Shown piece by piece: positions 3,553 to 16,955 of a DNA stretch of 16,955 nucleotides; position 1 is the first letter of the stretch, and each line of letters begins with the position of its first letter. This DNA is from an uncultured Magnetococcales bacterium (GTDB lineage: Bacteria > Pseudomonadota > Magnetococcia > Magnetococcales > Magnetaquicoccaceae): the NCBI GenBank assembly GCA_903913345.1, contig CAIWLA010000105.1:1-16955 (forward strand), given 5' to 3'. The position numbers and the translations under genes were made by a program. The notes under the pieces were generated by a model. It was not told the DNA's origin. It was given only the letters and a program-made list of their open reading frames with translations, and did no database searches.

Positions 3553-3622
3553 CGGCAGCGGCCCGCTCTGACCCCAGGCAAACCGATCCGTTGGGCCACG
3601 GTTGCCGGATCTTTAAAACCCG

Positions 3623-3652
3623 TTGGAATCCTGGTCTGAATCATGCTAGACT
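3623..3652 (+). promoter_or_regulatory. Possible promoter for the CheW-CZB gene
   Basis: TTGGAA at 3623-3628 (4 of 6 to the -35 consensus) is followed after 18 bases by TAGACT at 3647-3652 (4 of 6 to the -10 consensus). A TG dinucleotide at 3644-3645 gives an extended -10. Transcription would start near 3659, about 47 bases before the chosen ATG at 3706. It would suggest that the coupling protein is expressed independently of tamA. This is a match by eye only. Confidence 0.3.
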
Positions 3653-3690
3653 CTCAGACAATCGGGTATCCATCGATCCATTGTGTCGGG

Positions 3691-3698
3691 GGGGAGGG
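3691..3698 (+). promoter_or_regulatory. Ribosome binding site that decides the CheW-CZB start
   Basis: GGGGAGGG ends seven bases before the ATG at 3706. The in-frame upstream ATG at 3643 lies inside the putative promoter and encodes a 21-residue prefix that does not resemble CheW. The start at 3706 is therefore preferred. Confidence 0.7.
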
Positions 3699-3705
3699 TA
3701 AAAGA

Positions 3706-4518
3706 ATGGTCGCCAGTTTTCCAAGTGATGTCGAATATCTCGTCTTTACGGTCAGCCAGGGCCGCTATGGCATTCCGGGTGCGGAGGTGCTCTCCGTCAT
3801 GGATATGCCGACCTGTACCCTGGTGCCCCATCTGCCTTCGGATGTACGGGGGGTCATTGCCTTTCGGGGGGGCAATATTCCCCTGTTTGACCTGCGTATC
3901 TGTTTTGGTGCGCGCGCCCGCACGGCTGAGACCGAAGAGCTGGTGACCACCATGGGGATGTGCAAACAGGATCATATCAACTGGGTCAACAAACTGAAAG
4001 ACGAAGTACTGAATGGCAAGCCCATTACCGTGCAGACCGATCCCCATAAATGTGCCTTCGGCAAATGGTATGACCAATTCCAGAGCGACAATGTCAATCT
4101 CTCTGCCTATATGCACCGTTTTGACAACCCGCACCAGGAGATTCACCGGGTAGCGATCGATGCGGCTGAATTGTGCCGGGATGGCTGCAATCCCCAGCGG
4201 GCACGGGATTTGATCCACCGCACCGAAACCGGGGTGCTGGCTCGTCTGATCGAGCTGTTTGATGGCATTTCCGATCAGGTGCGCAAATATTTGCTGGAAT
4301 ATGCCATCATTCTGCAAGTGGACGGCGAACTGTTTGCCATTGCGGTGGACGACATCAACTTTTTCAGCCGACTCACCCGGATTGAACATCCTTTGCCCTC
4401 CGGTTCGGTGCCGCAGGGATCCAGCCTGGTACAGGCCCTGGGCCGCTATCGGGAGGAGGGCAGTACGGAAGAAAAGGATGTTCTGTTGTTGGATATGACC
4501 CTCATCACCCAGCAGTGA
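3706..4518 (+). CDS. CheW-like coupling protein with an inserted CZB zinc-binding domain
   Basis: This 270-aa protein has two CheW halves around an inserted CZB (chemoreceptor zinc-binding) domain. Residues 8-68 hold the first half: EYLVFTV (10-16), YGIP (21-24), a VRGVIAFRGGNIPLFDLR stretch (47-64). Residues about 88-150 are a CZB domain with candidate zinc ligands H90 (in HINW), C116 (in CAFGKWY, 116-122), H143 and H147 (NPHQEIH). The C-to-H spacings of 27 and 4 equal those I recall for DgcZ of E. coli. Residues about 193-268 return to CheW: YAIILQVDGELFAIAVDDI (199-217) and VLLLDM (259-264). CheW couples chemoreceptors to the kinase CheA. CZB domains sense zinc and, through the ligand cysteine, hypochlorous acid. 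The inferred role is a coupling protein whose signalling changes with zinc or oxidant. It lies between tamA and tamB, with gaps of 153 and 62 bases. No CheA or receptor gene is in the window. Confidence 0.87.
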   Translation: MVASFPSDVEYLVFTVSQGRYGIPGAEVLSVMDMPTCTLVPHLPSDVRGVIAFRGGNIPLFDLRICFGARARTAETEELVTTMGMCKQDHINWVNKLKDEVLNGKPITVQTDPHKCAFGKWYDQFQSDNVNLSAYMHRFDNPHQEIHRVAIDAAELCRDGCNPQRARDLIHRTETGVLARLIELFDGISDQVRKYLLEYAIILQVDGELFAIAVDDINFFSRLTRIEHPLPSGSVPQGSSLVQALGRYREEGSTEEKDVLLLDMTLITQQ

Positions 4519-4580: not shown

Positions 4581-7500
4581 ATGGCCACCACTGACGTGAC
4601 CCCGCCGGATCCGCAGGGGGGATCCCCTTCCTCCCGGTTTTCTGCGTGGTCGAAAGGGGTGGCGGCTGCCCTTCTCCTGCTCGTCGTCCTGCTGATCTCT
4701 GCCCTGCTGGCCCTGCAAGGCAAACCCAGTCAACACCTGTTGGCCCAACTCCTGGAACAATGGCTCAGTGGCCCGAATGGTCGGGTGACGGTGCAGGGGT
4801 TGCACGGCCAGTTCCCCTGGGAGGGGACCGTTGGCCACCTGTCCTGGACGGATCGGGATGGCACCTGGCTGGAGATCGAACGGTTGCACTGGGCCTGGTC
4901 GCCCGCCGCCCTGTGGCGGGGAGAGGTGCAGATCCAGGTCGTGGAGGCCGAACAGATCCATCTTTATCGTCAACCCCGCGCCAACCCGGACGGGGCATCG
5001 GAACCGGTCACCCCATCCTCCTGGTCACCGCTTGCCCATCTCCCACCGGTCCTGGTGGACCGTTTGCACCTGACCGAACTCCTTCTGGATGCCGAAGCCT
5101 ATGGACAGGCGGCCCGTTTTTCCCTGGACGGGGAGATCCAGAACCGGACCAGCCCCGCTTCCCCCACTGACCCCGATGCCACCCAATGGCAAGCCAAACT
5201 GGCCATACATCCCCTGGATGCCGGCGATACCCGATTGAACCTGCACGCCCAACTCTCCCCGGCGGGGCCTTTGCGGGGGGATTCCCGGTTGACCCTGACC
5301 CTGGAAGGAGAGGAACGGAGCGGACTGCTGGCCGCCCTGACCGGTTGGAGAGCGGCCAAGGGGGTCCATTTTCACTTGACCGGACACGGTCCACTGGCGG
5401 CCTGGCAGGGCCAGTTGCAGACCACGGTCGAGGGGGTGGGGGGGGTAAAGGGTGCCCTCCATCTGACCTATACCGACCACCCCGTTGTCCAGTTTGCGGG
5501 ACGGGCCGAGGGGGATTCCACCCTGCTCGGTGCCGAGTGGACCGCCCTGCTGGTCCCGGTCAACGCCGCGCACCCGGACGCTGTGGCACTCGATCTGAAC
5601 CTGGAGGCGGAATGGCTGGAGGGTCGCACCGTTCGTCTCCGTCATCTGGCCATTGGCTCGCCGTTGGTGCAGATGCAGGGTCAGGGCACCTGGGCATGGC
5701 CGGCCCAACAGGGAGAGGCCACCCTCCAGGTGACGATACCCCAATTGACCGCCGTCTCGGCCCTGACGGGTCTGCCCTGGCAGCGTGGCACCCTGTCGGC
5801 GACTCTGGCAGCCAAAGGCCATTGGCCCGATCCCCACCTCCAATTGACCGCCGAGGCCACCGATCTGGCCGTGGCGACGTGGCAGGTCAAACAGAGTACG
5901 CTCCAATGGGAAGGCACCCTGGTCCAGGGAGCAGACTCCCCCTTTCATGGCGAGGGCCGTGTGGTCGGACTGCGTTCCGGGGATGGACCAGATCTTGGCT
6001 CGGAGCCATGGATCTGGTCTGCCGATCTGACCATGCTGACCACCGGTGCGGCCCGACTGACCCGGATGACCCTGACCGATCACAATCTGACCGCCCGGTT
6101 GCAGGGGGCCATCGATTGGACCCAACAGAGCGGGCAAGGCCAGTGGCAGGTGACGATGATCCGCCTCTCCGACTGGATCCGACGGGTGGTTCCAGACCAT
6201 GCCCCGATCGAGGGGGAGGGGGAGTGGTCCGGTCAATTGACCCTGACCCCGCCGGGCGGATTGGGCGAACAGGCCACGCCGTTCCAATTGACGACCACCC
6301 TGACGGGTGCCGTGTCGTCCGTGCAGGGTCTGCCCGAGGCGGCACATATTTTATTGGGTGCGACAATCCAGACCGAGGCCAACCTCTCCTGGGCGGGAAA
6401 AGGGTTGGCCATCACCCATCTGAACATCCAGGGAGAGCGGATGCAATGGCAGGGAACCGGGCAGGTAGACCTGGGCAGCCAGCAGATGACGGGACAGGTT
6501 CAGATCCATATACCCCAATTGGCCCCTCTCTCCCCGCTGGCGGGTCTCCCGCTCAAGGGGGATCTCTGGGCGGATATGCAACTGGATGGTCTCCTCTCGA
6601 TGCCACACCTGCACATGGCGGTGCACGCCCCTGTCATCGATGTGGGAAAGGTCCATTGGGAAAGGCCCAACCTCCTTCTGGTGAACGATGGATGGGATCC
6701 CACCCCCCATGGCAGGTTGACGCTGGATCTGCCGGGGGTGGACAAAAAACCGTTGCCCATGACCGGTTCCTACCGTCTGGAAGAGACCCGGTTGCACCTG
6801 ACCGATCTGCACCTGCCCTGGCCCGGTGGCGAACTGACGGGGGAACCGGTGCAGGTGGACTGGGCACAGGGGATCATCGATGGCCAACTGCACGGCAAAA
6901 CCGCCACCCCCGGTCCGTGGGCAGAGTGGTTGACCGGTTCGATCCATCCGCTCGCCTCCGAATGGGCTGGTACTGTGGCGGTGAATCTGCACTGGGCCGG
7001 GGAGGGTCGGCGGCAAAACCTGGAGGCCAGTGTGCAGGGCCAACTGCTCCGGGGTGGTTCCAACCTGCTCGAAAAGGCAACGCTTCAGGCCAGGCTGGCG
7101 GACCTTTGGGGCAAAACCAACGGCACGGTTGAGGGAAAGATTCATCGGCTGCATTGGAAAAATACCCAGATACACGATGCCCAGTGGACGATGGCGGGCA
7201 CCCGCCAATCGGCCACCGTGACGATGAGCGGCAAAGGGTTGCTGACCCTGGGGAAGAGTCCAGACGCGCCATTTCCCATCCCGCTGACCACCCGCCCGAC
7301 GCCTGGAGTGACCAGACAGGAGGGATTTGATTGGCAGGTTCGTGGCACCCTGGGCATGGATGACAAAGGAGTGATACGCGGCACGTTGGCCGAGTGGACG
7401 GGTCGCATCGGCCCGGAGATGTTGCGATTGGACGAACCGGCCCATCTGGTCCTGACCCCCTCCGGCACCCATGCCAGGGGTGGTTTTCACCTGGATCTGG

Positions 7501-9203
7501 ACCGGTTGGCACTGGGGTATGGACCGGCCCACCTGGATGGTCATGTCCATTATGATGCGCATCGGGTCGATATGGAGGGCGATTTGCGTCTGCCACTGGC
7601 CCTGGTCGCCCAGTTGGGCGGGCCGGACAGTCAGGGAACGGCCAGGGCTTATCTGAAACTGAGCGGCTCATCCAACCAACCCGATGGACAATTTTCCCTG
7701 CAATTGGATCAGGTTCATTTTAACGATCCGGCCATGGAGTCCATTCCACCGGCCACCCTGCAGGCCGATGCGTGGTTGGAAAAGGGTCAGGTCAATCTCC
7801 GCATGACGTTGCAAAAATGGACATCCAGTCCAATGACGGCTCTGTTGTTGTTTCCCGTTCAGTTGGGGTTTGTCCCTTTTCATTGCGCGCTGCCGGAGGA
7901 AGGGGCGATCGGTGGCACCTTGAATGCCGATGCGCAATTGACGCAATTTGCCCTGCTGGCCAATTCGGGGTTGATGGACAGCCAAAAAGTGGATGGTCTG
8001 GTCCACATTGCCCTGCACCTGGGGGGGACCGTGGCGAACCCGGAGGTGGAGGGGACCGTTCTGGTCCACAATGGCAGTTATGAAAACGGCTCTTTGGGCA
8101 CCCTCTTGAAGGGGGTTGAACTCGCGGCGACGGCCCATGGCCGCACGATCACCATCGACACCTTGGCGGCCAATGATGGCGGGGCGGGCCATCTGCGCGC
8201 CACCGGTCAGCTGGCACTGGATGTCGCGCAGCACTGGCCCTTCAAGCTGGAGGCGACGCTGGAAAAGGCACTGTTGATCCATCGCGATGAGTGGCAGGCC
8301 ACCTTGAGCGGTCCCCTGGTGGTGCAGGGCAATGGGGAACGGATGGAGATAACGGGGGATCTGACCAGCAATGAGTCGTTGCTGTATCTGGCGGAGAGCG
8401 AATCCCTGGATATGCAGAGTGTGTCGATTGACAGGGAGATACAGAACGGTTTGCATGTGGAGGAGGAGGGGAGGGATGCTCCGGAATCGGCCTCCATGCC
8501 GGTGGCCTTGAACATGACCCTGCATGTACCCAATCGGGCCTTTGTGCGGGGACGCGGGTTGGAGTCGGAGTGGCAGGGGGATTTGACCCTGCGCGGTCTG
8601 GCGAGTGCGCCCCGGATTGAGGGGCAAATAGTGGTTCGGCGTGGTTATTTTGAATTTTTGGATCAGCGGTTCGATCTGCGCAAGGGGATCATCGCCTTTG
8701 AGGGCACGACCCCTCCGCTTCCCAATCTGGATCTGGAGGCGGAATCCAAAAACACCAACAACATGGTGGCGGTATTGAGTTTGAAGGGACCGGCCCTGTC
8801 ACCCACGTTGACCCTCAGTTCGGACCCCGATCTGCCCCAGGATGAAATTCTGGCCCGTCTGTTGTTCAACCGCAACCGGCAGCAACTGACGCCGACCCAG
8901 GCCCTCAGTCTGGCGATGGCCGTGGAAAAACTGCGCAATGGCGGTCCCGGTCTGTTGGGTCGGGCCAGGGACACCCTGAAAATTGACCGGCTGGAGTTGG
9001 GCGGGGACAACCCGGAATCCGGTTCGGTCAAGGCGGGCAAATATTTGAGTGACACGGTGCTTCTGGGGGTCGAACGTGGTGTCAAGCAGGGCAGCGGGAA
9101 GGTCTCTGTGGAGCTGGAGGTGATGCCCAACGTCGTCCTGCAAACCGAGATGGATGAGACCAACAAGAGCGGCGTGGAGATCAATTGGAAGCATGATTAT
9201 TAG
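4581..9203 (+). CDS. tamB: TamB, translocation and assembly module / AsmA-like inner-membrane protein
   Basis: This 1540-aa protein is anchored by one N-terminal transmembrane segment (about residues 26-46, VAAALLLLVVLLISALLAL). A very long periplasmic stretch of beta-strand-forming sequence follows, rich in alternating hydrophobic/polar runs and GxLxL repeats. The C-terminal third holds the TamB (DUF490) domain: FVRGRGLESEWQGDLTLRG (starting at 1321), the stretch from RRGYFEFLDQRFDLRKG on to FEGT, DLPQDEILARLLFNR (1417-1431), then a barrel-like end (NKSGVEINWKHDY). E. coli TamB is about 1259 aa, so this is a long member. TamB docks its C-terminus on the TamA POTRA domains and spans the periplasm as a hydrophobic groove. 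The ATG at 4581 follows AGGGA by 12 bases. Large open frames on other strands and phases here are by-products of the GC-rich codon usage. tamA and tamB are normally adjacent; here the CheW-CZB gene separates them. Confidence 0.93.
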   Translation: MATTDVTPPDPQGGSPSSRFSAWSKGVAAALLLLVVLLISALLALQGKPSQHLLAQLLEQWLSGPNGRVTVQGLHGQFPWEGTVGHLSWTDRDGTWLEIERLHWAWSPAALWRGEVQIQVVEAEQIHLYRQPRANPDGASEPVTPSSWSPLAHLPPVLVDRLHLTELLLDAEAYGQAARFSLDGEIQNRTSPASPTDPDATQWQAKLAIHPLDAGDTRLNLHAQLSPAGPLRGDSRLTLTLEGEERSGLLAALTGWRAAKGVHFHLTGHGPLAAWQGQLQTTVEGVGGVKGALHLTYTDHPVVQFAGRAEGDSTLLGAEWTALLVPVNAAHPDAVALDLNLEAEWLEGRTVRLRHLAIGSPLVQMQGQGTWAWPAQQGEATLQVTIPQLTAVSALTGLPWQRGTLSATLAAKGHWPDPHLQLTAEATDLAVATWQVKQSTLQWEGTLVQGADSPFHGEGRVVGLRSGDGPDLGSEPWIWSADLTMLTTGAARLTRMTLTDHNLTARLQGAIDWTQQSGQGQWQVTMIRLSDWIRRVVPDHAPIEGEGEWSGQLTLTPPGGLGEQATPFQLTTTLTGAVSSVQGLPEAAHILLGATIQTEANLSWAGKGLAITHLNIQGERMQWQGTGQVDLGSQQMTGQVQIHIPQLAPLSPLAGLPLKGDLWADMQLDGLLSMPHLHMAVHAPVIDVGKVHWERPNLLLVNDGWDPTPHGRLTLDLPGVDKKPLPMTGSYRLEETRLHLTDLHLPWPGGELTGEPVQVDWAQGIIDGQLHGKTATPGPWAEWLTGSIHPLASEWAGTVAVNLHWAGEGRRQNLEASVQGQLLRGGSNLLEKATLQARLADLWGKTNGTVEGKIHRLHWKNTQIHDAQWTMAGTRQSATVTMSGKGLLTLGKSPDAPFPIPLTTRPTPGVTRQEGFDWQVRGTLGMDDKGVIRGTLAEWTGRIGPEMLRLDEPAHLVLTPSGTHARGGFHLDLDRLALGYGPAHLDGHVHYDAHRVDMEGDLRLPLALVAQLGGPDSQGTARAYLKLSGSSNQPDGQFSLQLDQVHFNDPAMESIPPATLQADAWLEKGQVNLRMTLQKWTSSPMTALLLFPVQLGFVPFHCALPEEGAIGGTLNADAQLTQFALLANSGLMDSQKVDGLVHIALHLGGTVANPEVEGTVLVHNGSYENGSLGTLLKGVELAATAHGRTITIDTLAANDGGAGHLRATGQLALDVAQHWPFKLEATLEKALLIHRDEWQATLSGPLVVQGNGERMEITGDLTSNESLLYLAESESLDMQSVSIDREIQNGLHVEEEGRDAPESASMPVALNMTLHVPNRAFVRGRGLESEWQGDLTLRGLASAPRIEGQIVVRRGYFEFLDQRFDLRKGIIAFEGTTPPLPNLDLEAESKNTNNMVAVLSLKGPALSPTLTLSSDPDLPQDEILARLLFNRNRQQLTPTQALSLAMAVEKLRNGGPGLLGRARDTLKIDRLELGGDNPESGSVKAGKYLSDTVLLGVERGVKQGSGKVSVELEVMPNVVLQTEMDETNKSGVEINWKHDY

Positions 9204-9310
9204 GGGCTGTTGACATTCATGCCAAAAGTATGATAGAAAATCGGCATACGTTTTAATAAACGAGGAAAGACTGGGGTCTTTCTGAAAAACTGTCTTGATG
9301 TGGCAGCCCC
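9203..9310. repeat. 108-bp element with terminal inverted repeats and three internal stem-loops
   Basis: GGGGCTG at 9203-9209 is the exact inverse of CAGCCCC at 9304-9310. As RNA the stem could extend by three G-U pairs. Between them lie three consecutive stems: ATGCC/GGCAT (9219-9223 with 9243-9247), CGTTT/AAACG around a TAAT loop (9249-9262), and the perfect GAAAGAC/GTCTTTC around TGGG (9265-9282). The left end overlaps the last base of the tamB stop codon. No target-site duplication is obvious. It could be a small non-autonomous mobile element (MITE-like), a structured leader for the DUF262 operon, or a weak terminator of tamB (no T-run follows). A perfect -35 box TTGACA sits at 9210-9215, but the best -10 at 18-base spacing (TAGAAA, 9234-9239) is only 4 of 6, so a promoter here is uncertain. 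Confidence 0.45.
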
Positions 9311-9343: not shown

Positions 9344-10519
9344 ATGAACACGGCAGAGCAAACAGGTAATCAAGGGGAAGAGATTGCAGCACCCGACCCC
9401 ATCGTGAATGAGGGCGGCGTTGAAGGGGAAGATCTGGGCATGACCAACCCCTTTGATCCGGCCAAAATCAAGGTTGAGACCAAGCAGATGAGCCTGGACA
9501 CCTTGATCAAACGGATGAAGGAGGGAGAGATCGACCTTTCCCCGGATTTCCAACGGAATGAGGTTTGGAAACCGCCTGCCAGAAGCCGGTTGATTGAATC
9601 CCTGTTGATTCGCATTCCACTGCCCGCCTTTTACATGGATGCCACGAATGAGGACAAATGGACGGTCGTGGATGGTCTGCAACGACTGTCAACATTGCGC
9701 AATTTTATCATCCCCAGGAATGAAAAGGAAAAATTATACCTGGTCGAACTGGAATTTTTGAAGGAACTGGAGGGCAAAGGATTCACCGATCTGCCACGCC
9801 ACTATCAACGCCGCATAGAAGAGACCCAGGTGACGGTTTACCTGATTGAAAGGGGTACGCCTGATGATGTCAAGTTTAATATTTTTAAACGAATCAATAC
9901 GGGTGGTCTTCCCCTCTCCTCCCAGGAGATCCGCCATGCGTTGAATCAGGGACCGGCGGCCGTTTTATTGAAAGAGTTGGCAGCATCACAAGAATTCCAG
10001 GAGGCCACTGCATGGGGTATCCGTGACCAACGGATGTCGGATCGGGAATGTGTTTTGCGCTTTTTCGCTTTTCTCCTCACACCTTATGACCAGTATGATG
10101 CGGGTGATTTTGACGCCTTCCTCAGCGGTGCCATGGCCCAGATTAACACCATGTCTGATCGGAAACGACGTCTTATAAAGTCAAAATTTTACCGCGCCAT
10201 GTCGAATGCAATGGATATTTTTGGTGATCGCGCCTTTCGCAAGCAGACCAGTCTGCAAGGGGGACGATTCCCTGTCAATAAAGCCTTGTTTGAATCCTGG
10301 TCGGTCAATCTGGATGCTTTGACCGATGATGAGATCGATATTTTGAAAGAGAACAAGAGGCTGGTAAATAAAGCATTCATAAAACTGATAAAAACTGACC
10401 AGGAATTTGTCAGTGCCATCACCCAGGGCACGGGTCATTTCAACCGGGTTCGCAAACGGTTCAATGCCATAGAACAACTCATCCAGGAGATCCTGCGCGA
10501 ACGGGGGGAGTCCCTATGA
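9344..10519 (+). CDS. DUF262 domain protein (GmrSD N-terminal / ParB-like fold), likely defence gene
   Basis: This 391-aa protein shows the DUF262 motifs in order: LSPDFQRNEVWKPPARSRLI (residues 65-84), LLIRIPLPAFYM (87-98), VVDGLQRLSTL (108-118, the DGxQR motif) and FKRINTGGLPLSSQEIRHAL (181-200). The fold is ParB/sulfiredoxin-like. In GmrSD-type restriction enzymes it binds or hydrolyses NTP and is fused to a DUF1524 HNH nuclease; here the last 190 residues show no HNH motif, so nuclease activity is not evident. The first 40 residues are acidic and low in complexity. AGGA lies 11 bases before the ATG. The stop overlaps the next ATG by four bases (ATGA), indicating translational coupling with the ATPase. 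GC is much lower than in tamB (24 and 22 of 60 in the samples 10141-10200 and 10321-10380), suggesting transfer. The inferred role is sensor or effector of an anti-phage cassette. Confidence 0.88.
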   Translation: MNTAEQTGNQGEEIAAPDPIVNEGGVEGEDLGMTNPFDPAKIKVETKQMSLDTLIKRMKEGEIDLSPDFQRNEVWKPPARSRLIESLLIRIPLPAFYMDATNEDKWTVVDGLQRLSTLRNFIIPRNEKEKLYLVELEFLKELEGKGFTDLPRHYQRRIEETQVTVYLIERGTPDDVKFNIFKRINTGGLPLSSQEIRHALNQGPAAVLLKELAASQEFQEATAWGIRDQRMSDRECVLRFFAFLLTPYDQYDAGDFDAFLSGAMAQINTMSDRKRRLIKSKFYRAMSNAMDIFGDRAFRKQTSLQGGRFPVNKALFESWSVNLDALTDDEIDILKENKRLVNKAFIKLIKTDQEFVSAITQGTGHFNRVRKRFNAIEQLIQEILRERGESL

Positions 10520-11625
10520 TCCAACATCTGCGTTTGAAAAATTTTAAATGTTTTGAGAGTGTCGCCATTCCCATGGCCAATCTGACCCTGCTCACGGGGC
10601 TGAATGGCATGGGGAAATCCTCCGTCATTCAGAGTCTCCTGGTTCTCCGGCAATCCTTTCAGCAGGGACTTCTTCCCGGTCGTGGACTGGCCTTGAATGG
10701 GGAACTGGTCAACCTGGGCACAACCCAGGCGGTGCTTTATGAAAACGCCAGGGAAGACCAGATCGAGATCACGCTGGAATCGACCCAACCCAAGGCCAAG
10801 GCGGAATTTGTGCTGAATTATGTCATGAATTCCGATGTAATGACCATACATTCCCACACCGTGACCGGTGACTTTTTTCAGGACACCCTTTTTACCGATC
10901 ATTTCCAATATATTCAGGCGGAACGCGTCGGCCCACGGGTGACCTTTCCGGTCTCTGAATACCATGTCCGGCAACATCGGCAACTGGGGTCACATGGGGA
11001 GTATACCAGCTATTTTCTGGAGGTTTTTGGCAGAGAATTGATCGTATTGTCCGCATTGCGCCATGAAAGGGAGCCGTCTGACCGATTGCTGGATCAGGTC
11101 TCTGCCTGGCTGGGAGAGATCAGCCCTGGCATCGCCATTCACCTCTCGCCCTATGCCAACATGGATGTGGTCAATCTGGAATATTCCTACGCCACATCCA
11201 TAGGACGCAGTGGACACTATCGGGCCTCCAGCGTGGGCTTCGGATTGACCTATACCCTGCCCATCGTCGTTGCCCTTCTGGCGGCCAAACCGGGGGCGGT
11301 GCTCCTCCTGGAAAACCCGGAGGCCCATCTCCATCCCCAGGGACAAGTCCGAATGGGTGAATTGATTGCACGAACCGCCCAGGCCGGTGTGCAGATTATC
11401 CTGGAAACCCACAGCGATCACATTCTCAATGGCATCCGGGTGGCGGTACGTCAACAAAGATGTGCCCCGGAACGGGTGGCCATCCACTATTTTTCGCGCA
11501 CAGAAAAAAATGGTCGCGCCCAAAGCGTCCTGGAATCGCCCGTCATGGACAAGGATGGCCGGATCGACCACTGGCCAGCCGGCTTTTTTGATGAATGGGA
11601 AAAAAGCCTTGAAAACCTGTTCTGA
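10516..11625 (+). CDS. AAA/OLD-like ATPase with DUF3696 C-terminus
   Basis: This 369-aa ATPase is of the RecF/OLD/ABC-like class. N-terminal LRLKNFKCFES (residues 5-15) is typical of this class. Walker A is GLNGMGKSS (28-36). A signature-like segment SVGFGLTY (239-246) precedes Walker B, LLLENPEAHLHPQGQ (263-277). The switch histidine is in ETHSDHILNGIR (297-308). The protein ends with GRIDHWPAGFFDEWEKSLENLF-type sequence (W353, P354, G356, F357, F358, D359), the hallmark of DUF3696. No TOPRIM domain is visible, so it is an ATPase rather than an OLD nuclease. It starts inside the stop of the DUF262 gene with a GGGGGAG site just upstream. ATPases of this type paired with DUF262 proteins occur in anti-phage loci; ATP hydrolysis is probably used to detect infection or gate a partner effector. 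A sample at 10801-10860 has 25 of 60 G+C. Confidence 0.9.
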   Translation: MIQHLRLKNFKCFESVAIPMANLTLLTGLNGMGKSSVIQSLLVLRQSFQQGLLPGRGLALNGELVNLGTTQAVLYENAREDQIEITLESTQPKAKAEFVLNYVMNSDVMTIHSHTVTGDFFQDTLFTDHFQYIQAERVGPRVTFPVSEYHVRQHRQLGSHGEYTSYFLEVFGRELIVLSALRHEREPSDRLLDQVSAWLGEISPGIAIHLSPYANMDVVNLEYSYATSIGRSGHYRASSVGFGLTYTLPIVVALLAAKPGAVLLLENPEAHLHPQGQVRMGELIARTAQAGVQIILETHSDHILNGIRVAVRQQRCAPERVAIHYFSRTEKNGRAQSVLESPVMDKDGRIDHWPAGFFDEWEKSLENLF

Positions 11626-11639
11626 CCGGAGGGGTAGAC

Positions 11640-12578
11640 ATGTCGTTAGACCTTGTTTTTAATGAGTTAAGTATGCTGCCCATGGCCCCCGACCAGGAAA
11701 GAGCCAGACAGCGCGCCCATACCTTTGTCCAGACGGTTCGTTATGCCCGCCAAAAGGGCATGGGCGAATTGCGGACCCAGGAGGCCTTCAGGGATTCCAT
11801 GCTGGCGGCGGGATATTCCTGGCGGAGATGGACGCAGGATCCAGAGGTTCCCAGGGAAGCGCGGTTGTATCTGAAAAGTCTCGCTGTCCGTGCCCCTTAC
11901 CTGGATGGTCTGGAGGCACTCCAGGATCAAGCAGCGAGATCCGATTTCTTGTTTGCTGGCCGCAAGGCCGAGGGGTTGGGGGTCGCCTTCATGAACAAAG
12001 GCTTGGCCGTCAGTCTCTTTTTCGATGGCATGTGGGATAAACCTTCCCTTGACTTGACCATTCAGGAATTACAAGAAGATGGCCAGATCCTGGAATACAA
12101 AGATTCTGTCTATCATGCCAGCCGACCTGACCATGTGGATCGACATGAGGCATGGATCCAAGAATTCCTGGAGGCCTCTGTTGTCGATGGGGCGGCATTG
12201 TGGGCACAAAGAGGCACCTGTTTTCCATCCCTCGTTTTTTGCGAGGCGGTTCAGGAGCAAATGCGGAAATTACCGAGAGAAAAGGTTCCATCCTTCTTTC
12301 GAGGATTGCGTTGTCTGGAAAAATATTGTCAGGAATGGCAATCGGGAGGGTTCAACCAGAGTGCGTTGGGATGTCAATCCTCCCCAGAGGGCCAAACGGC
12401 CCTGGATCAATATGCCCAGGAAAGAACCTTTACTCTGCCAAACGGGGAAAGAAAGATTTTCAACTATCACGTCAAACTGGGAAACCCTTGGCGCATTCTT
12501 TATGACCCGGATTTCGGTCCAGGAAAAATATGTGTAGGGTTCGTTGGGTTTCATCTTAGAACCAGGCATGACCATTGA
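11640..12578 (+). CDS. Uncharacterised 312-aa third component of the DUF262/DUF3696 cassette
   Basis: The gene begins 14 bases after the ATPase stop, with a strong GGAGGGG site five bases before the ATG, so it belongs to the same operon. I cannot assign a named domain. The protein looks soluble, without signal peptide or membrane segment. Residues 1-110 appear helical and charged. A middle part contains FPSLVFCEAVQEQMRKL (195-211), then a segment with W233. The C-terminus has a characteristic run: SPEGQTALDQYAQERTF (248-264), LPNGERKIFNYHVKL (266-280), WRILYDPD (284-291), KICVGFVGFHLRTR (296-309). This ending resembles a conserved tail (F.xH.KL ... RIxY ... IGxxGxHLxT) that I associate with hypothetical proteins of defence loci, possibly with a toxin-like or nuclease-like role; that is inference only. 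GC is low (24 of 60 at 12061-12120). It converges on the PAP2 gene after 85 bases. Confidence 0.85.
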   Translation: MSLDLVFNELSMLPMAPDQERARQRAHTFVQTVRYARQKGMGELRTQEAFRDSMLAAGYSWRRWTQDPEVPREARLYLKSLAVRAPYLDGLEALQDQAARSDFLFAGRKAEGLGVAFMNKGLAVSLFFDGMWDKPSLDLTIQELQEDGQILEYKDSVYHASRPDHVDRHEAWIQEFLEASVVDGAALWAQRGTCFPSLVFCEAVQEQMRKLPREKVPSFFRGLRCLEKYCQEWQSGGFNQSALGCQSSPEGQTALDQYAQERTFTLPNGERKIFNYHVKLGNPWRILYDPDFGPGKICVGFVGFHLRTRHDH

Positions 12579-12663: not shown

Positions 12664-13266
12664 CTATTCCGCCACCCATCCCTGGGCAATCGGCTTGGCC
12701 ATGATGCGCCGGTAGCGGTTTTCCAGTTGGACGACCAGACGGTCGCCCAGGCGGTTGGTGTGCAACAGGCGATGGACCCCCCAGACCGACCCCGCCGCCA
12801 CCCCCAATCCACCCACCATATCCAGGGGAAAATGGACCCCCAGGTAGACCCGCGACCAGCAGACCAGAAGGCTCAACCCCAGCAACACCCAGCCCACCCG
12901 CTTGCGCACCACATTCCACCACAAAGACAAGGCCATCGAAAAACAAAATACCGCATGATTGCTCGGAAAAGAGGCATCCGGGGCGTGGACCAGATGGGTA
13001 TGTCCCAGACCGATGACAAAGGGACGGGGATGCGGCCACAGCCAGCGCAGACAGAGGCTCACCATCAATCCCAACAGAATGGCCAGTACCGCCCGGACGG
13101 CCAACTCCCGATGATAGGACAAGCCCCACAGCCACATGCTCAATAACAGCAAAGGCAGTATATAAACCAACCATTTGGCAAAAAAAAGGGCACCATACAG
13201 CAACACAGGCGACGGATCAGCCCCGGCATTGAGCCACAAAAAGAGTGTCTGATTGAACTGTTCCAT
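12664..13266 (-). CDS. PAP2-family membrane phosphatase, possibly undecaprenyl-diphosphatase (BcrC-like)
   Basis: This 200-aa protein has about five to six membrane helices (for example residues 21-48, 56-75, 105-120, 125-142, 148-165) and the PAP2 active site. Motif 1 ends in RP (R81-P82 in WPHPRP), with R74 where the family usually has lysine. Motif 2 is FPSNH (100-104; S102, H104), with N in place of the usual G. Motif 3 is SRVYLGVHFPLD (138-149; R139, nucleophile H145, D149). PAP2 membrane enzymes of this size dephosphorylate undecaprenyl diphosphate or phosphatidate-type lipids on the periplasmic side. The start at 13266 (MEQFNQ) is chosen because the protein aligns from there. An upstream in-frame ATG at 13386 would add 40 residues encoded by the GC-rich inverted repeat, which is unlikely to be translated. 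GGAA about nine bases upstream is a modest ribosome site. Confidence 0.88.
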   Translation of the reverse strand: MEQFNQTLFLWLNAGADPSPVLLYGALFFAKWLVYILPLLLLSMWLWGLSYHRELAVRAVLAILLGLMVSLCLRWLWPHPRPFVIGLGHTHLVHAPDASFPSNHAVFCFSMALSLWWNVVRKRVGWVLLGLSLLVCWSRVYLGVHFPLDMVGGLGVAAGSVWGVHRLLHTNRLGDRLVVQLENRYRRIMAKPIAQGWVAE

Positions 13267-13287
13267 GGGATTGTTTCCAGGTAAGGG

Positions 13288-13321
13288 ATGTACGCTATTG
13301 ACTACGTCATGGATTGTACAT
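13288..13321. promoter_or_regulatory. Nested dyad upstream of the PAP2 gene, possible operator
   Basis: ATGTAC at 13288-13293 and GTACAT at 13316-13321 form a 6-bp inverted repeat with 28 bp between centres. Inside it, TGAC-TAC-GTCA occupies 13299-13309. The position, 22-55 bases upstream of the PAP2 start, suits a regulator binding site, but short dyads arise by chance. Confidence 0.2.
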
Positions 13322-13330
13322 GGACACGGG

Positions 13331-13408
13331 GTCCAGGGGCTGGACGGGCGCAGAAAAACCTTGGGGCTTTGCCCCCAAACCCCCACCAGTGGGATGATCC
13401 CCCTGGAC
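13331..13408. repeat. GC-rich nested inverted repeat (REP/MITE-like)
   Basis: The outer arms GTCCAGGGG (13331-13339) and CCCCTGGAC (13400-13408) are perfect 9-bp inverses. Inside are a hairpin GGGGC-TTT-GCCCC (13363-13375) extended by TT/AA with a bulged C, and a smaller CCCA-CCAG-TGGG (13382-13393). The composition (ggggctttgcccccaaaccccc) differs from the flanks and is reminiscent of dispersed intergenic REP-like repeats in many GC-rich proteobacteria. Copies elsewhere in the genome cannot be checked here. Confidence 0.5.
13354..13378 (-). terminator. Intrinsic terminator downstream of the large ZorA-like gene
   Basis: Read leftwards, the sequence is TTGGGG, a bulged G, C, AAA, GCCCCAA, GG, then TTTTT (complement of 13354-13358). 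This is a seven-pair GC-rich stem with a three-base loop followed within two bases by a T-run. It lies 61 bases after the stop codon at 13439, so it would separate that transcript from the PAP2 gene. Confidence 0.6.
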
Positions 13409-13438: not shown

Positions 13439-16400
13439 CTACGATTTGAAAAGCGAAAACCGCTTCTGGCTGTCCAGAAAATCCGCTGTCTGCTGGGCGA
13501 TAAAGGCGGTCAAGGGCTGCCATGAACGACCGTTCTGACTCCTGAACGCCTGCAACAGAGTGGGAGCCAACAGTGGCACGGCTTGATCCCCCATGGAGAC
13601 CCCCGGCAACGACGCCCCCCCCCGTCCGGCCATCACCACCAGGGCACGCCGGCCCTCCCGCATCTCCCGTGCCCGTTGTGTCATCGCCGGCAACAGACGC
13701 GCGAAAGGACCGCTCTCCGCCGATCGCTCTCTGGGGAGAGGCAAAACCGCCCTTGGAGCGGTCTTGACCGACGAATCCGAATCGGAAACCGACTGATAGG
13801 CCACCAAAAGAGAGTCGTTGAGCGATACGGTCTCTGCCCATGCGGTCGCCACCGGGGGCAACGGTGCGGGGGCAGGGGAGAGGGATGGGCAGGTCTCCTC
13901 CACCCGATGACCATTCGGCACCCCCTCCCCGGTCTCCGGGTGACACACCGGAGCAGGAGGGGTGGCCGGTTGCACGGAACCCGCCACCGCTTGCGACCGC
14001 AAGGCCTGGACAATCTCCTGACTTCCGGCCCACAACCGATCGCCCTGCTCGTGAACGGTATGGATCAGGGTTTGCAATTGCAACGGCGTGGCCCGACCGA
14101 TCCTGGCATCCAACGCCGCAACCGAACGATTGACCTCGGTGGCCACCCGTTCCATCAAACGCATCTCCTCACCCCGTTGCCGGGCCATGAGTTGGGCCAT
14201 CTCGGTCACGGTCGGTGCCAGGGTGGCGATGCGGGCAAAAAGCCGATCGCCCTGTTCCCGTACCGTATCCGCCAACATTTTCATATTCAACGGCGTGGCC
14301 CGGCCAATCCTGGCATCCAACGTCGTCACCGCCCGGTTGACCTCTTTGACCACCTCTTTCAGCAGACGCCGCTCCTCATGACGTTGCCGGGAGAGAATAC
14401 GGGTCATTTCCACCAAAACCGGCTGCAGGGCCGTCTGGTTGGCCAACGGCTCCATCCCCTCCGGCCCCTCTGACTCTCCATCCCCCAGAGGCTCCTCCGA
14501 TGGCTCCGTTGACCCGCTCCCCACCAACGCGGCAGCGGATGACAGTGGGGCCAACCGCTCAACGACCTCTTCCAACAGCCGTTCAAAGGCCGCCTCACCG
14601 GCCATGACCAACCGTTCCCCCTCCTGACGCCAGCCATCCAGCAGGGGCTGGAGACTCTGTTCGTTCAGAACGGCCACCACCTCCCCCGTGGGGACCGGCG
14701 TTGCCGCAGCCAACAGGGCAGCGTGGGCCGGACTGGAGAGACTCTCCAACCGATCCAGCAACCGTTGATGGCCGTCATGCACCCGCTCCCCCTCCTGTTG
14801 AATGCGGTCAAACAGCGACTCCAGATCGGGTATCCAGGCCGATGCCACCACCGACTCGTCCGCCAACGCCGCCTTGGCGGTCAACGCCTGGCTGACGGCA
14901 GCCAACTGATCGACAATCCGGGTGAGAACCGCCGAGGCGTTCGGATCATCCATCCGGGCAGAACCGGTCGAACGGGATGAGATCTGTTCCGTCAACAGAC
15001 GATTCAGGGTGTCCGCATTGGCCTGGAGCAGACGCTCTCCTTCGCTGCGAATGGCATCGGCCAGTACCGTCAGGTCGGGCAGGGTATCGACCGCCCAGAC
15101 CTTGCTCTCCAGCGCGGCGGTCACCCGATCCAGTTGTTGCACAATCTGGGCAAAATGGCTCTGCACGGTATCGTTCAGGGTTTTTTGGCCCACATCGGGC
15201 ATCTGTTCCATCTCGCGGCGCAGGTTGGCGAAGAAAGGAGCCAGCCCCACCTCTCCCAGACTGGCCACGGCCTGCTCCATGCGCACGGCCACCCGCTCCA
15301 GCAACCCTTCCCGCTCGGACGGTGCCAATTCGGAGAGGGTGGTGGTGGCGGTGGCCGCCGTCAGGCGGTGACCAATCCCCTCCAGAAGGGTCTGCATGGT
15401 CTCCTCGTTGGCACGCATCCACCGCGCCCCCTCGTGGCGCACGGCCTGCAATACCGCATCCGCACTCGACTGGGTCGCCGAGACCTCCATCTTTTCGCCC
15501 AGAGCGAGAATGGCCCGTTCAATCTGGCTGCCCATCTGTTCCATCAGGAGAGGCAGGTCGTCCGACCGGGCGGAACGCTCCACTGACGGGAACGGGTCAG
15601 CCGGTGCCACCCGGTGCGATAATTCGGTTTTGAGGGTCGCCATCACTTCGAGATGGGCCGTCTGCATCCGCATCCCCTCTTCCCGCAAGGCGGCAACCAG
15701 GGGTGCCATCTCCATCGGCGTTCCAACGGTGGCCATCCGCTCTCCCAGGGTCTCCATCGCCTGTTCCAATTGGCCCGCCACCCGCTCCACAACCCCTTCA
15801 TTCAGGAAGGATTCCGCCGGAGGCTTGCCCGTCTGTGCCTGAAAGCTCGGTTGGGTGATCACTTGATGCAGACGGTCGGCGATCTCCTGCAACTGCCGCG
15901 ATTGGGTCTGGGTCGCCTGGAGTTGCTCCCGGCCAATCGAATCGTCACCGGTCCAGACCACCCGTTCCAGCCACAACTGGCAAATCAACTCGGCCTCCCG
16001 CTCCAGGCGGTATTTATGGCGTTTTTCCTCCCAGGAAAAGAGGAGGGCAATGGCCAGACCGGCAATGGAAGAGAGAAATTTGATCGAAGCGGCGTTGAGC
16101 AGCCCCATCAGGGCACTCTGGGTCGTGTAGAGGTCGCCACTCGCCATTCCCTGAATGGTAAAATGGATGGCCGCCACCAGGCCGACCAGAGTGACCAATA
16201 CCCCCACACCCACCAACAGGTTGGGAACAGTGCGATAATAATAGTGGGCCGCCTCCCGTCCCATCAGGAGATCGGCACTAAAAAAATGACCTGGAGTGCG
16301 ACTGCCATACAGGGGAACGCCTCGGGTCGGCGGTACCACCAGCGTCTTGCTGAAGGCCGACCAGGCGGGAGCCAGCAGACGGTGCCGAACCAATGCCTCG

Positions 16401-16609
16401 CTGATCTCTGCATAGCGGGCGGCAAAGAGAATCGGCTCCTCCGGCGTCTCTTCCAACTGTCGTCGCATATCGACCAGTTGCCGGTACAACGGACGAAAAA
16501 AATGGCCCTGCAAGGCGAACCAATGACCGCTCCCCCACAACAGAAGGAGACCGGCCGCCGCCCAAGGTGTCCACGCATGATTCAGCCACTGCAGAGTCCA
16601 GTCCAACAT
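13439..16609 (-). CDS. ZorA/MotA/TolQ/ExbB-like proton-channel protein with a long repetitive helical tail
   Basis: The predicted protein is 1056 aa. Membrane segments lie at about residues 11-33 (WTPWAAAGLLLLW), 129-152 (VPNLLVGVGVLVTLVGLVAA) and 167-193 (ALMGLLNAA then FLSSIAGLAIALLFSW). The pair VPNLLVGVGVLVTLVGL and KFLSSIAGLAIAL matches the MotA/TolQ/ExbB core, and most closely the ZorA version, in which a channel Thr and a GL follow PNLL. Residues about 230-880 form a helical tail with eight degenerate copies of a unit centred on RxEGxRL (near 309, 391, 464, 521, 604, 661, 784, 853). A proline-rich linker (about 880-925) and a final helical region follow. In Zorya defence, ZorA pairs with ZorB to form a proton-driven motor with a long intracellular tail. 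No zorB-like frame follows here. The start at 16609 has GGAGAG at 16614-16619; an in-frame ATG at 16636 with a weaker site is an alternative. Confidence 0.75.
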   Translation of the reverse strand: MLDWTLQWLNHAWTPWAAAGLLLLWGSGHWFALQGHFFRPLYRQLVDMRRQLEETPEEPILFAARYAEISEALVRHRLLAPAWSAFSKTLVVPPTRGVPLYGSRTPGHFFSADLLMGREAAHYYYRTVPNLLVGVGVLVTLVGLVAAIHFTIQGMASGDLYTTQSALMGLLNAASIKFLSSIAGLAIALLFSWEEKRHKYRLEREAELICQLWLERVVWTGDDSIGREQLQATQTQSRQLQEIADRLHQVITQPSFQAQTGKPPAESFLNEGVVERVAGQLEQAMETLGERMATVGTPMEMAPLVAALREEGMRMQTAHLEVMATLKTELSHRVAPADPFPSVERSARSDDLPLLMEQMGSQIERAILALGEKMEVSATQSSADAVLQAVRHEGARWMRANEETMQTLLEGIGHRLTAATATTTLSELAPSEREGLLERVAVRMEQAVASLGEVGLAPFFANLRREMEQMPDVGQKTLNDTVQSHFAQIVQQLDRVTAALESKVWAVDTLPDLTVLADAIRSEGERLLQANADTLNRLLTEQISSRSTGSARMDDPNASAVLTRIVDQLAAVSQALTAKAALADESVVASAWIPDLESLFDRIQQEGERVHDGHQRLLDRLESLSSPAHAALLAAATPVPTGEVVAVLNEQSLQPLLDGWRQEGERLVMAGEAAFERLLEEVVERLAPLSSAAALVGSGSTEPSEEPLGDGESEGPEGMEPLANQTALQPVLVEMTRILSRQRHEERRLLKEVVKEVNRAVTTLDARIGRATPLNMKMLADTVREQGDRLFARIATLAPTVTEMAQLMARQRGEEMRLMERVATEVNRSVAALDARIGRATPLQLQTLIHTVHEQGDRLWAGSQEIVQALRSQAVAGSVQPATPPAPVCHPETGEGVPNGHRVEETCPSLSPAPAPLPPVATAWAETVSLNDSLLVAYQSVSDSDSSVKTAPRAVLPLPRERSAESGPFARLLPAMTQRAREMREGRRALVVMAGRGGASLPGVSMGDQAVPLLAPTLLQAFRSQNGRSWQPLTAFIAQQTADFLDSQKRFSLFKS
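14024..14407 (-). repeat. Recent 207-bp tandem duplication inside the channel-protein tail
   Basis: The copy encoded by 14201-14407 (69 residues) is followed by a second copy at 14024-14200. Both contain LDARIGRATPL and EQGDRL, with RQR.EE.RL at the beginning of each. At DNA level, 14081-14090 and 14288-14297 are identical (caacggcgtg), and the flanking bases agree at most positions with an exact 207-base offset. Other repeats in this tail are much more diverged, so this pair appears to be the youngest expansion. Confidence 0.8.
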
Positions 16610-16955
16610 ACGGCTCTCCGTCAAAATTTTGGACATGTCATGAGGGTTCTTTTGTGCTGTTCTTGACCTGCACAAAAAAAATCGAGTACATCCGTTGAAT
16701 TATCCCCTGGCCGGGATGCCTGTCTGCGACACCTTGAAGCCAAGACGATCCTCCACGCGACCATGGATGCAAGATTCATGCTAAAGTTATTGAAACGCCA
16801 TCCTTCCCGTTTGGACGGCCCCCTGTCAACCGATCGCTGTCGCTCCGCAGAGGGTTTGAAACGGCGGAGCCTAAGGAGCCTGGCAAAAATAACTTGAACA
16901 TCTTGCTTGTCTTTTGGTCCGCCCGCGTCGTTGCAAAAAGGCTTACATACTGATA
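16610..16955. other. Right-edge intergenic region, no convincing gene
   Basis: These 346 bases upstream of the channel gene hold its presumed promoter and ribosome site. The only other structures seen are an inverted repeat GCTCCGC/GCGGAGC (16842-16848 with 16864-16870) whose loop contains GTTTGAAAC, and a direct repeat GGAGCCT-AA-GGAGCCT around 16866-16881. A rightward 44-codon frame from ATG 16765 (MDARFMLKLLKRHP...) and a leftward frame open to the edge have no recognisable domain and no clear ribosome site. The block 16842-16955 has the look of an interspersed repeat or element end, but this cannot be confirmed from one copy. Confidence 0.4.
16699..16726 (-). promoter_or_regulatory. Possible promoter of the ZorA-like gene
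   Basis: On the minus strand, CAGACA (complement of 16721-16726, 4 of 6 to -35) is followed after 16 bases by GATAAT (complement of 16699-16704, 5 of 6 to -10). Transcription would begin near 16692, about 80 bases before the chosen start. This is a match by eye only. Confidence 0.3.

Follow-up and report, generated by a model that had tools for sequence, protein, structure and literature searches.

The DNA analysed here (the window) is one whole contig of 16,955 bases, CAIWLA010000105.1 (C105), from the 3.63 Mb, 729-contig draft genome of an uncultured Magnetococcales bacterium. Between a TamB and a PAP2 gene it carries three adjacent genes, nsnA, nsnB and nsnC, which, judged by their sequence, are a complete operon of the Menshen defence system. 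We favour, with a probability of about 0.6, the reading that this operon encodes an ATPase-gated ribonuclease (RNase) toxin, NsnC, that would cause abortive infection. This reading is built on gene content, gene order, co-occurrence, motifs, conserved residues, predicted folds and the exchange of the C-terminal part of NsnC in other loci.

Identification of the operon

When compared with the PADLOC profiles of Menshen (PDLC03877, PDLC03878 and PDLC03879 for NsnA, NsnB and NsnC), NsnA scored 480.1 bits, with residues 26-385 aligned to positions 24-384 of 385 and the runner-up, PD-T4-2_A, at 136 bits. NsnB scored 400.8 bits over residues 1-369 (positions 1-343 of 345; runner-up HEC-03B, 120 bits). 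NsnC matched PDLC03879 with 256.0 bits (residues 1-307 on positions 1-304 of 305), and all five PADLOC matches listed for it are NsnC profiles. Because all three proteins match defence-system profiles near full length, the trio is more than a chance assembly. Menshen genes lie adjacent in the order A-B-C on one strand, and this is the arrangement in the window: nsnA and nsnB overlap by the four bases ATGA (10516-10519), and 14 bases with a GGAGG-like ribosome site (11626-11639) separate nsnB from nsnC.

An earlier inspection of the bare letters of the window (the sequence-only reading) had given these coordinates, the overlap, the gap and a low content of guanine and cytosine (GC), had placed DUF262 in the first protein, a DUF3696 ATPase in the second and TamB and PAP2 genes at the flanks, had left the third protein as unknown, and had recognised a Menshen-type layout. 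The list of open reading frames (ORFs), the GC measurements and the domain searches agree with it throughout, and the PADLOC comparison that it had proposed names the proteins NsnA, NsnB and NsnC. Its further idea of a variant not yet catalogued is ruled out by the PADLOC matches, for all three proteins, with NsnC among them, match a catalogued profile over nearly its full length; the locus is an ordinary member of the catalogued system.

PMC10952713 credits the first description of Menshen to Millman et al. 2022, and a passage of it states that phage resistance is abolished on loss of the Menshen DUF262 gene. No worked-out mechanism was met in the passages of the literature consulted. Review passages link an OLD-type TOPRIM domain with Menshen, and PF20469 (OLD TOPRIM) had no match in NsnA, NsnB or NsnC at an E-value of 0.1. 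As nearly all of the 345 positions of the PADLOC NsnB profile are matched, an extra domain is seemingly not required.

NsnC and the exchange of its C-terminal part

The AlphaFold model of NsnC (predicted local distance difference test, pLDDT, 92.9; predicted template modelling score, pTM, 0.80) assigns residues 196-305 to the YoeB/RelE fold, and searches of Pfam and NCBIfam gave no significant family match for the protein. From the relatives of NsnB in GTDB, at least 583 in number, the best 80 loci were used; they had been found with peptide patterns for the Walker B and ETHSDH stretches, a selection in which rarer layouts are therefore under-sampled. The C-terminal part retains the letters H-x-K/R, R and H/K, and of 81 aligned rows all have H277 and 79 have R285. 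These rows are 57 whole third proteins of the GTDB loci and 24 of 26 homologues (P0025 and P0026, which are incomplete, were dropped), and some genomes are represented twice.

The third proteins counted number 72, of which 69 are longer than 230 amino acids and match the window-type profile and three (L112, L121 and L123) were added by hand; shorter or split proteins were omitted. The end of the window-type profile is reached by 57 of the 72, whereas 14 differ without reaching it, and the NsnC of L076, which stops inside the C-terminal part, was counted as neither whole nor swapped. In four loci, L048, L051, L053 and L083, the N-terminal part is matched at 128-161 bits and the match breaks off at profile positions 177-182 (181 in L048 and L051, 177 in L053, 182 in L083). 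Behind the break, the RelE/ParE toxin family TIGR02683 (cut-off 62.85 bits) is recognised in L048 (96.8 bits), L051 (92.5 bits) and L083 (80.1 bits), and PF05973 lies above its cut-off in L048 and L051 and below it in L083. The PADLOC NsnC profiles match L048 only to residue 192 and L053 only to residue 178; for L083 they give a best match up to residue 219 and a weak one up to 248. The nsnA gene of L048 is divided between two ORFs. N-terminal matches are weaker in L109, L111 and L122 (65-95 bits; the third gene of L109 runs off its contig), in L069, L081, L085 and L094 (22-36 bits) and in L112, L121 and L123 (12-15 bits).

The exchange of a toxin-like C-terminal part behind a kept N-terminal part, beside NsnA and NsnB, is the behaviour expected of an effector. 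The sequence-only reading had offered either the DUF262 protein or the third protein for this role, and the swapped toxin domains point to the latter. One point weighs against our interpretation: the window-type C-terminal part cannot be linked by sequence to the TIGR02683 type.

The seven Magnetococcales trios share a mean pairwise identity of 62.3% for A, 60.5% for B and 50.6% for C, and NsnC has a lower identity than NsnA in all 21 pairs and a lower one than NsnB in 18 of them. Within NsnC, residues 151-195 are the least conserved (38.0%) and residues 261-312 the most (62.3%). A variable middle followed by a conserved C-terminal domain would fit a sensing or docking region that precedes an enzyme, a fit that falls short of proof. 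The divergent third proteins of relatives (L024-L029 and L031, all PADLOC NsnC) score 12.6-36 bits against window NsnC; the best stretch is the C-terminal part in six of the seven and spans the whole length in L024.

Two further types of NsnC were observed by eye. The proteins of L069, L081, L085, L094, L112, L121 and L123 have a tail of the form MDLs..AQ..L ... YHGYP/YHGFP, and the three that were scanned (L069, L094 and L123) have no Pfam family above cut-off. Those of L111 (7043-8095) and L122 (7150-8055) end in a tail with GAFEVCD.RG.H, in which no Pfam or NCBIfam family scored above cut-off.

NsnA and NsnB

NsnA matches GmrSD_N/DUF262 (PF03235) with 91.4 bits, at a Pfam cut-off of 33.2. 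D110, G111 and R114 of its nucleotide motif are invariant across 16 aligned sequences, and D-G-x-Q-R is found in 68 of the 69 NsnA proteins that score above 300 bits. No HNH (DUF1524) domain was found: PF03235 is the sole match at an E-value of 0.1, the ORF ends after the helical part, and the NsnA model matches BrxU no further than residue 421 of the BrxU chain. A GmrSD type IV restriction enzyme was ruled out, as NsnA has no DUF1524. An NsnA relative of 53-55% identity was observed in genome G036 (L023:8221-9369), with no NsnB or NsnC flagged beside it; the next genes encode first an AAA-like protein, whose match lies below cut-off, and then a TPR protein, and this is perhaps a different system that uses the same DUF262 switch.

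NsnB matches AAA_15 (PF13175), AAA_21 (PF13304) and DUF3696 (PF12476; 62.9 bits, cut-off 22), the last of which forms its end. With its Walker A, Walker B and ETHSDH stretches it appears, by these motifs, to be an intact ATPase. Among NsnB proteins of the GTDB loci, the Walker A pattern is found in 78 of 80, the Walker B pattern in 78 of 80 and ETHSDH or ESHSDH in 80 of 80, the latter two counts being partly by construction because the loci were found with patterns from these stretches. Against the PADLOC PtuA profiles NsnB scores 45.6-51.5 bits among the matches listed, its match to the NsnB profile being far stronger, and its sequence match to PtuA chains is weak (E-value 3e-4).

The main rival explanation assigns the killing to NsnA, which would cut or nick (modified) phage DNA with NsnB as the driver, while NsnC would be a sensor or docking protein with a catalytically dead RelE-like domain. 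DUF262 is described as the sensor part of modification-dependent nucleases in passages of PMC10952713 and PMC12137116, a passage of PMC11980606 labels such a protein as a putative nuclease, and locus L108 has a DUF262+DUF1524 enzyme ahead of nsnB; NsnC, moreover, changes fastest of the trio, as a sensor might. That variability, however, peaks in the middle of NsnC while its C-terminal end is the best conserved, H277 and R285 are retained, and a recognised toxin stands in the same place elsewhere, which suits an effector. NsnA, for its part, shows neither a DUF1524 domain nor a match to BrxU beyond residue 421. We consider this explanation unlikely, and retain NsnC as the putative effector.

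Distribution and genomic context

A set of 61 genomes was searched, the source genome included. NsnA occurs in 12 and NsnB in 11 of them (E-value 1e-30), window-type NsnC in nine, fragments included, and in 5 of 28 genera, and the intact trio in seven (the window and L015-L020). Within the genus, window-type NsnC is present in two of seven genomes and tamB in all seven. Ten of the 26 NsnC relatives come with a named organism, and nine of these ten are Magnetococcales or their kin. Two loci look decayed, L021 with a piece each of NsnA and NsnC and L022 with NsnA and two NsnC pieces, both without NsnB. In L030, also decayed, NsnB was observed to match only to residue 250, with what by eye is transposase-like sequence afterwards.

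In the GTDB sample, NsnA lies upstream of NsnB in 77 of 80 loci, NsnC downstream in 76, and both in 73. NsnA is missed in L047, where the contig begins, in L062, which has other genes upstream, and in L108. NsnC is missed in L063, where it lies in an overlapping frame that escapes the position rule, in L093, which has none, and in L112 and L123, which have a divergent third gene, that of L123 being a PADLOC NsnC at 345 bits. By record title, many of the loci are cyanobacterial, and others belong to Chloroflexota, Clostridia, Bacteroidota, Desulfobacterota, Myxococcota and Planctomycetota, to a Frankia and to a Methanosarcinaceae bin. In L108 (Desulfobacterales HSG16; 859-2538 and 2542-3654), a GmrSD-type enzyme with DUF262 and DUF1524 was observed three bases before nsnB in place of NsnA; its DUF1524 (60.2 bits) lies at the mirrored position of its contig, and the contig ends within the third gene. 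It is possible that the A slot, too, has been swapped here.

The trio might instead be an ordinary housekeeping operon of the lineage that merely resembles defence genes, as its place between tamB and PAP2 could suggest; in addition, no recognised defence gene was found among the six flanking proteins of the window in a Pfam scan (PADLOC was not applied to the flanks). The patchy distribution contradicts this explanation, which we regard as very improbable, and the carriage of the trio on phage and plasmid, described below, speaks against it. Downstream of tamB in five relatives (L033-L036 and L038), no ORF for NsnA, NsnB, NsnC or PAP2 was flagged. In genome G004, a separate contig each holds tamB, PAP2 and the trio, and in G001 the PAP2 copy adjoins a relative (47%) of the 1078-amino-acid ORF (L040) with tamB on another contig; these genomes are drafts, in which longer-range linkage may exist. 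The tamB-PAP2 site is not a fixed housekeeping context of the trio, and a fixed tamB-linked operon was ruled out by the patchy occurrence and the tamB flanks of the relatives. The condition that the sequence-only reading had set for its own refutation, with homologues in fixed housekeeping contexts and the three genes not occurring together, was not borne out: the genes co-occur in order in the seven intact Magnetococcales loci and in 73 GTDB loci, with no single fixed housekeeping context.

The base composition of the trio likewise argues against a housekeeping origin. GC content is 49.4% in nsnA, 54.0% in nsnB and 52.1% in nsnC, compared with 62.6% in the TamB gene, 62.5% in the 1078-amino-acid ORF, 60.2% in the TamA gene, 57.8% in PAP2, 56.9% in the epimerase gene and 55.0% in the CheW-CZB gene, the overall value of nsnB being just one point under the lowest flank gene. 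At third positions the values are 56.4%, 61.6% and 54.6% for nsnA, nsnB and nsnC versus 65.1-73.4% in the flank genes. The Magnetococcales host probably acquired nsnABC horizontally.

NsnA-like genes are present in 23 of 72,556 plasmid records (E-value 1e-30) and in 4 of 50,697 phage records (E-value 1e-20), two of the latter being the same Klebsiella phage; gene order was read in two of these plasmid and phage records. A Methylobacterium plasmid carries DUF262, DUF3696 and a third gene in order, the third being a PADLOC NsnC at 289 bits. In Vibrio phage L9-1 (Peduoviridae; L126:2616-6686), the trio (PADLOC NsnA 360, NsnB 344 and NsnC 93 bits) follows an integrase and a cytosine methyltransferase and precedes a hypothetical gene and a CI repressor; its NsnA, of 646 amino acids, has about 225 residues ahead of the profile match.

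In genome G018 (L018:4394-16000), an intact Menshen operon directly adjoins PglX (1356 bits), beyond which lie genes of Schlafen and Mrr type and then BrxC (1202 bits). A PADLOC scan of 64 ORFs of at least 110 amino acids that neighbour the six intact loci L015-L020 returned 15 families at an E-value of 1e-15, each through one ORF and counted without a matched control; AbiLi, AriA, mad2 and PDC-M12A are among these matches, not traced to a given locus. The comparison of neighbourhoods suggested by the sequence-only reading thus yields BREX-type neighbours (PglX and BrxC) at one of the six loci, L018, and we do not claim enrichment in defence islands, because no control was scanned.

Copies on plasmids and on a temperate phage, together with a RelE-family toxin domain, could also be expected of a three-component module related to toxin-antitoxin systems, in which NsnA and NsnB would restrain the NsnC RNase and whose selective benefit would lie in its own persistence or in plasmid exclusion, not in defence against phage. 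Catalogued Menshen, however, is anti-phage and, as noted above from PMC10952713, loses resistance with its DUF262 gene; one copy lies beside BREX genes; and the decayed or absent copies in relatives favour a use-it-or-lose-it regime over addiction. We therefore hold such a module to be improbable.

Features of the window

The positions of all features are collected in Table 1. Between tamA and tamB, a single protein was observed to combine CheW-like and CZB zinc-binding domains. The 1078-amino-acid ORF has no Pfam match at an E-value of 0.1; by eye, it seems membrane-bound in its N-terminal part and repetitive in the remainder. Directly after tamB lies a stretch of 108 bases (9203-9310) whose ends are the 7-nucleotide inverted GGGGCTG/CAGCCCC. 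It looks like a small mobile element, yet has one copy in this genome, and a search of 17 further genomes of the family brought up none.

Table 1. Positions of genes, domains and motifs, in the window unless a locus is named.
Feature	Position	Strand	Description
nsnA (gene A)	9344-10519	+	391 amino acids; DUF262/ParB-Srx nucleoside triphosphatase (GmrSD_N) and all-helical C-terminal part
DGLQR motif of NsnA	9671-9685	+	DGxQR nucleotide motif of DUF262
nsnB (gene B)	10516-11625	+	369 amino acids; ABC/OLD-type ATPase with DUF3696
Walker A of NsnB, GLNGMGKS	10597-10620	+	from alignment
Walker B stretch of NsnB, ENPEAHLHP	11311-11337	+	from alignment
nsnC (gene C)	11640-12578	+	312 amino acids; two-part protein, putative effector
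NsnC N-terminal part, residues 1-181	11640-12182	+	kept where other loci have replaced the C-terminal part
NsnC C-terminal YoeB/RelE-type domain (predicted), residues 196-305	12225-12554	+	H277, K279, R285, H305
RelE/ParE-tailed NsnC	L048:3013-3939
RelE/ParE-tailed NsnC	L051:7102-7998
RelE/ParE-tailed NsnC	L083:7108-7998
Epimerase gene	646-1668
TamA/Omp85 gene	1672-3552
CheW+CZB protein gene	3643-4518
TamB gene	4581-9203		PF04357
PAP2 gene	12664-13386	-	PF01569; strand opposite to the trio
1078-amino-acid ORF	13439-16675	-

Proposed mechanism

In the mechanism that we favour, NsnA would be a nucleotide switch of the DUF262/ParB type that lacks a nuclease domain and probably senses the invader, and NsnB would be the ABC-type ATPase that couples NsnA to NsnC. 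NsnC would be the killer, tied to the ATPase module by its N-terminal part, with a C-terminal YoeB/RelE-fold RNase that stays silent until infection and has H277, K279, R285 and H305 as its candidate active site. Once released, the RNase would cut mRNA, translation would halt and phage growth would be aborted. The sensing, the coupling, the silence before infection, the RNA target and the abortive outcome are the steps that we infer.

More generally, and at about even odds, Menshen may be a cassette system whose RNase warhead can be exchanged and is driven by one DUF262 switch together with one ABC-type ATPase. The first 180 residues of NsnC would then be a socket, behind which the C-terminal part is swapped among several toxin folds (the YoeB-like type of the window with H-x-K/R...R, a RelE/ParE type of cyanobacteria that matches TIGR02683 and two or more unclassified ones), the system would have been published under two names, Menshen and ptuXYZ, and the kill step would be translation arrest by an ATPase-released RelE-family RNase, not DNA restriction. 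The identification of the operon is in itself ordinary; it is the evidence on NsnC that makes a mechanism for Menshen testable, since the reading of NsnC as a RelE-family RNase, its C-terminal part open to exchange, offers point mutants and a read-out in translation and mRNA cleavage. The NsnC domain swaps may already stand in Li et al. 2025 (Nucleic Acids Res. gkaf357), a paper cited by title in PMC12704722 and PMC12839542.

Comparison with known systems

Compared with catalogued Menshen, the window has the same three genes in identical order with three near full-length profile matches, and we found no feature that sets it apart from the family. The GmrSD, BrxU and SspE type IV restriction enzymes differ from NsnA, in which no DUF1524 nuclease was found and whose operon also encodes an ATPase as a protein of its own and a third protein that resembles a toxin. 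NsnB has the ABC/OLD-type ATPase core in common with the PtuA of Septu and retrons and with other DUF3696 ATPases, but is shorter, ends in DUF3696 and has other partners.

With the ribosome-dependent RNase toxins YoeB, RelE and HigB, NsnC shares the predicted fold of residues 196-305; in NsnC, however, this domain is fused behind a 180-residue N-terminal part, and its conserved letters, H-x-K/R, R and H/K, come with no significant family match. A type II RelE/YoeB toxin-antitoxin module would have the same predicted toxin fold, but in the layout of a short toxin with its cognate antitoxin, which differs from that of the trio: the neighbours of nsnC are nsnB and PAP2, and no small antitoxin gene was seen beside it in the ORF list, which starts at 90 amino acids, shorter ORFs not having been sought.

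A close description is that of ptuXYZ (Gerdes, mBio 2025, PMC11980606), which in the passages concerned consists of a DUF262 protein without DUF1524, a PtuA-like P-loop ATPase and a two-domain protein whose N-terminal part is PIN-like and whose C-terminal part has a YoeB-like BECR fold; the legend of its Fig. 6 counts 17 such operons. A YoeB-like third protein was therefore proposed before this analysis. In the window, the first gene likewise encodes a DUF262 protein without DUF1524, the second a PtuA-like P-loop ATPase and the third a protein with a C-terminal YoeB-like fold in its predicted structure. Because architecture, gene order and predicted C-terminal fold agree, ptuXYZ and Menshen, compared here by description, would appear to be the same system. 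The word Menshen occurs 0 times in the main text of PMC11980606, and among the papers from 2025 on that were searched none joins the two names. If the two were handled as one system, two bodies of literature would come together.

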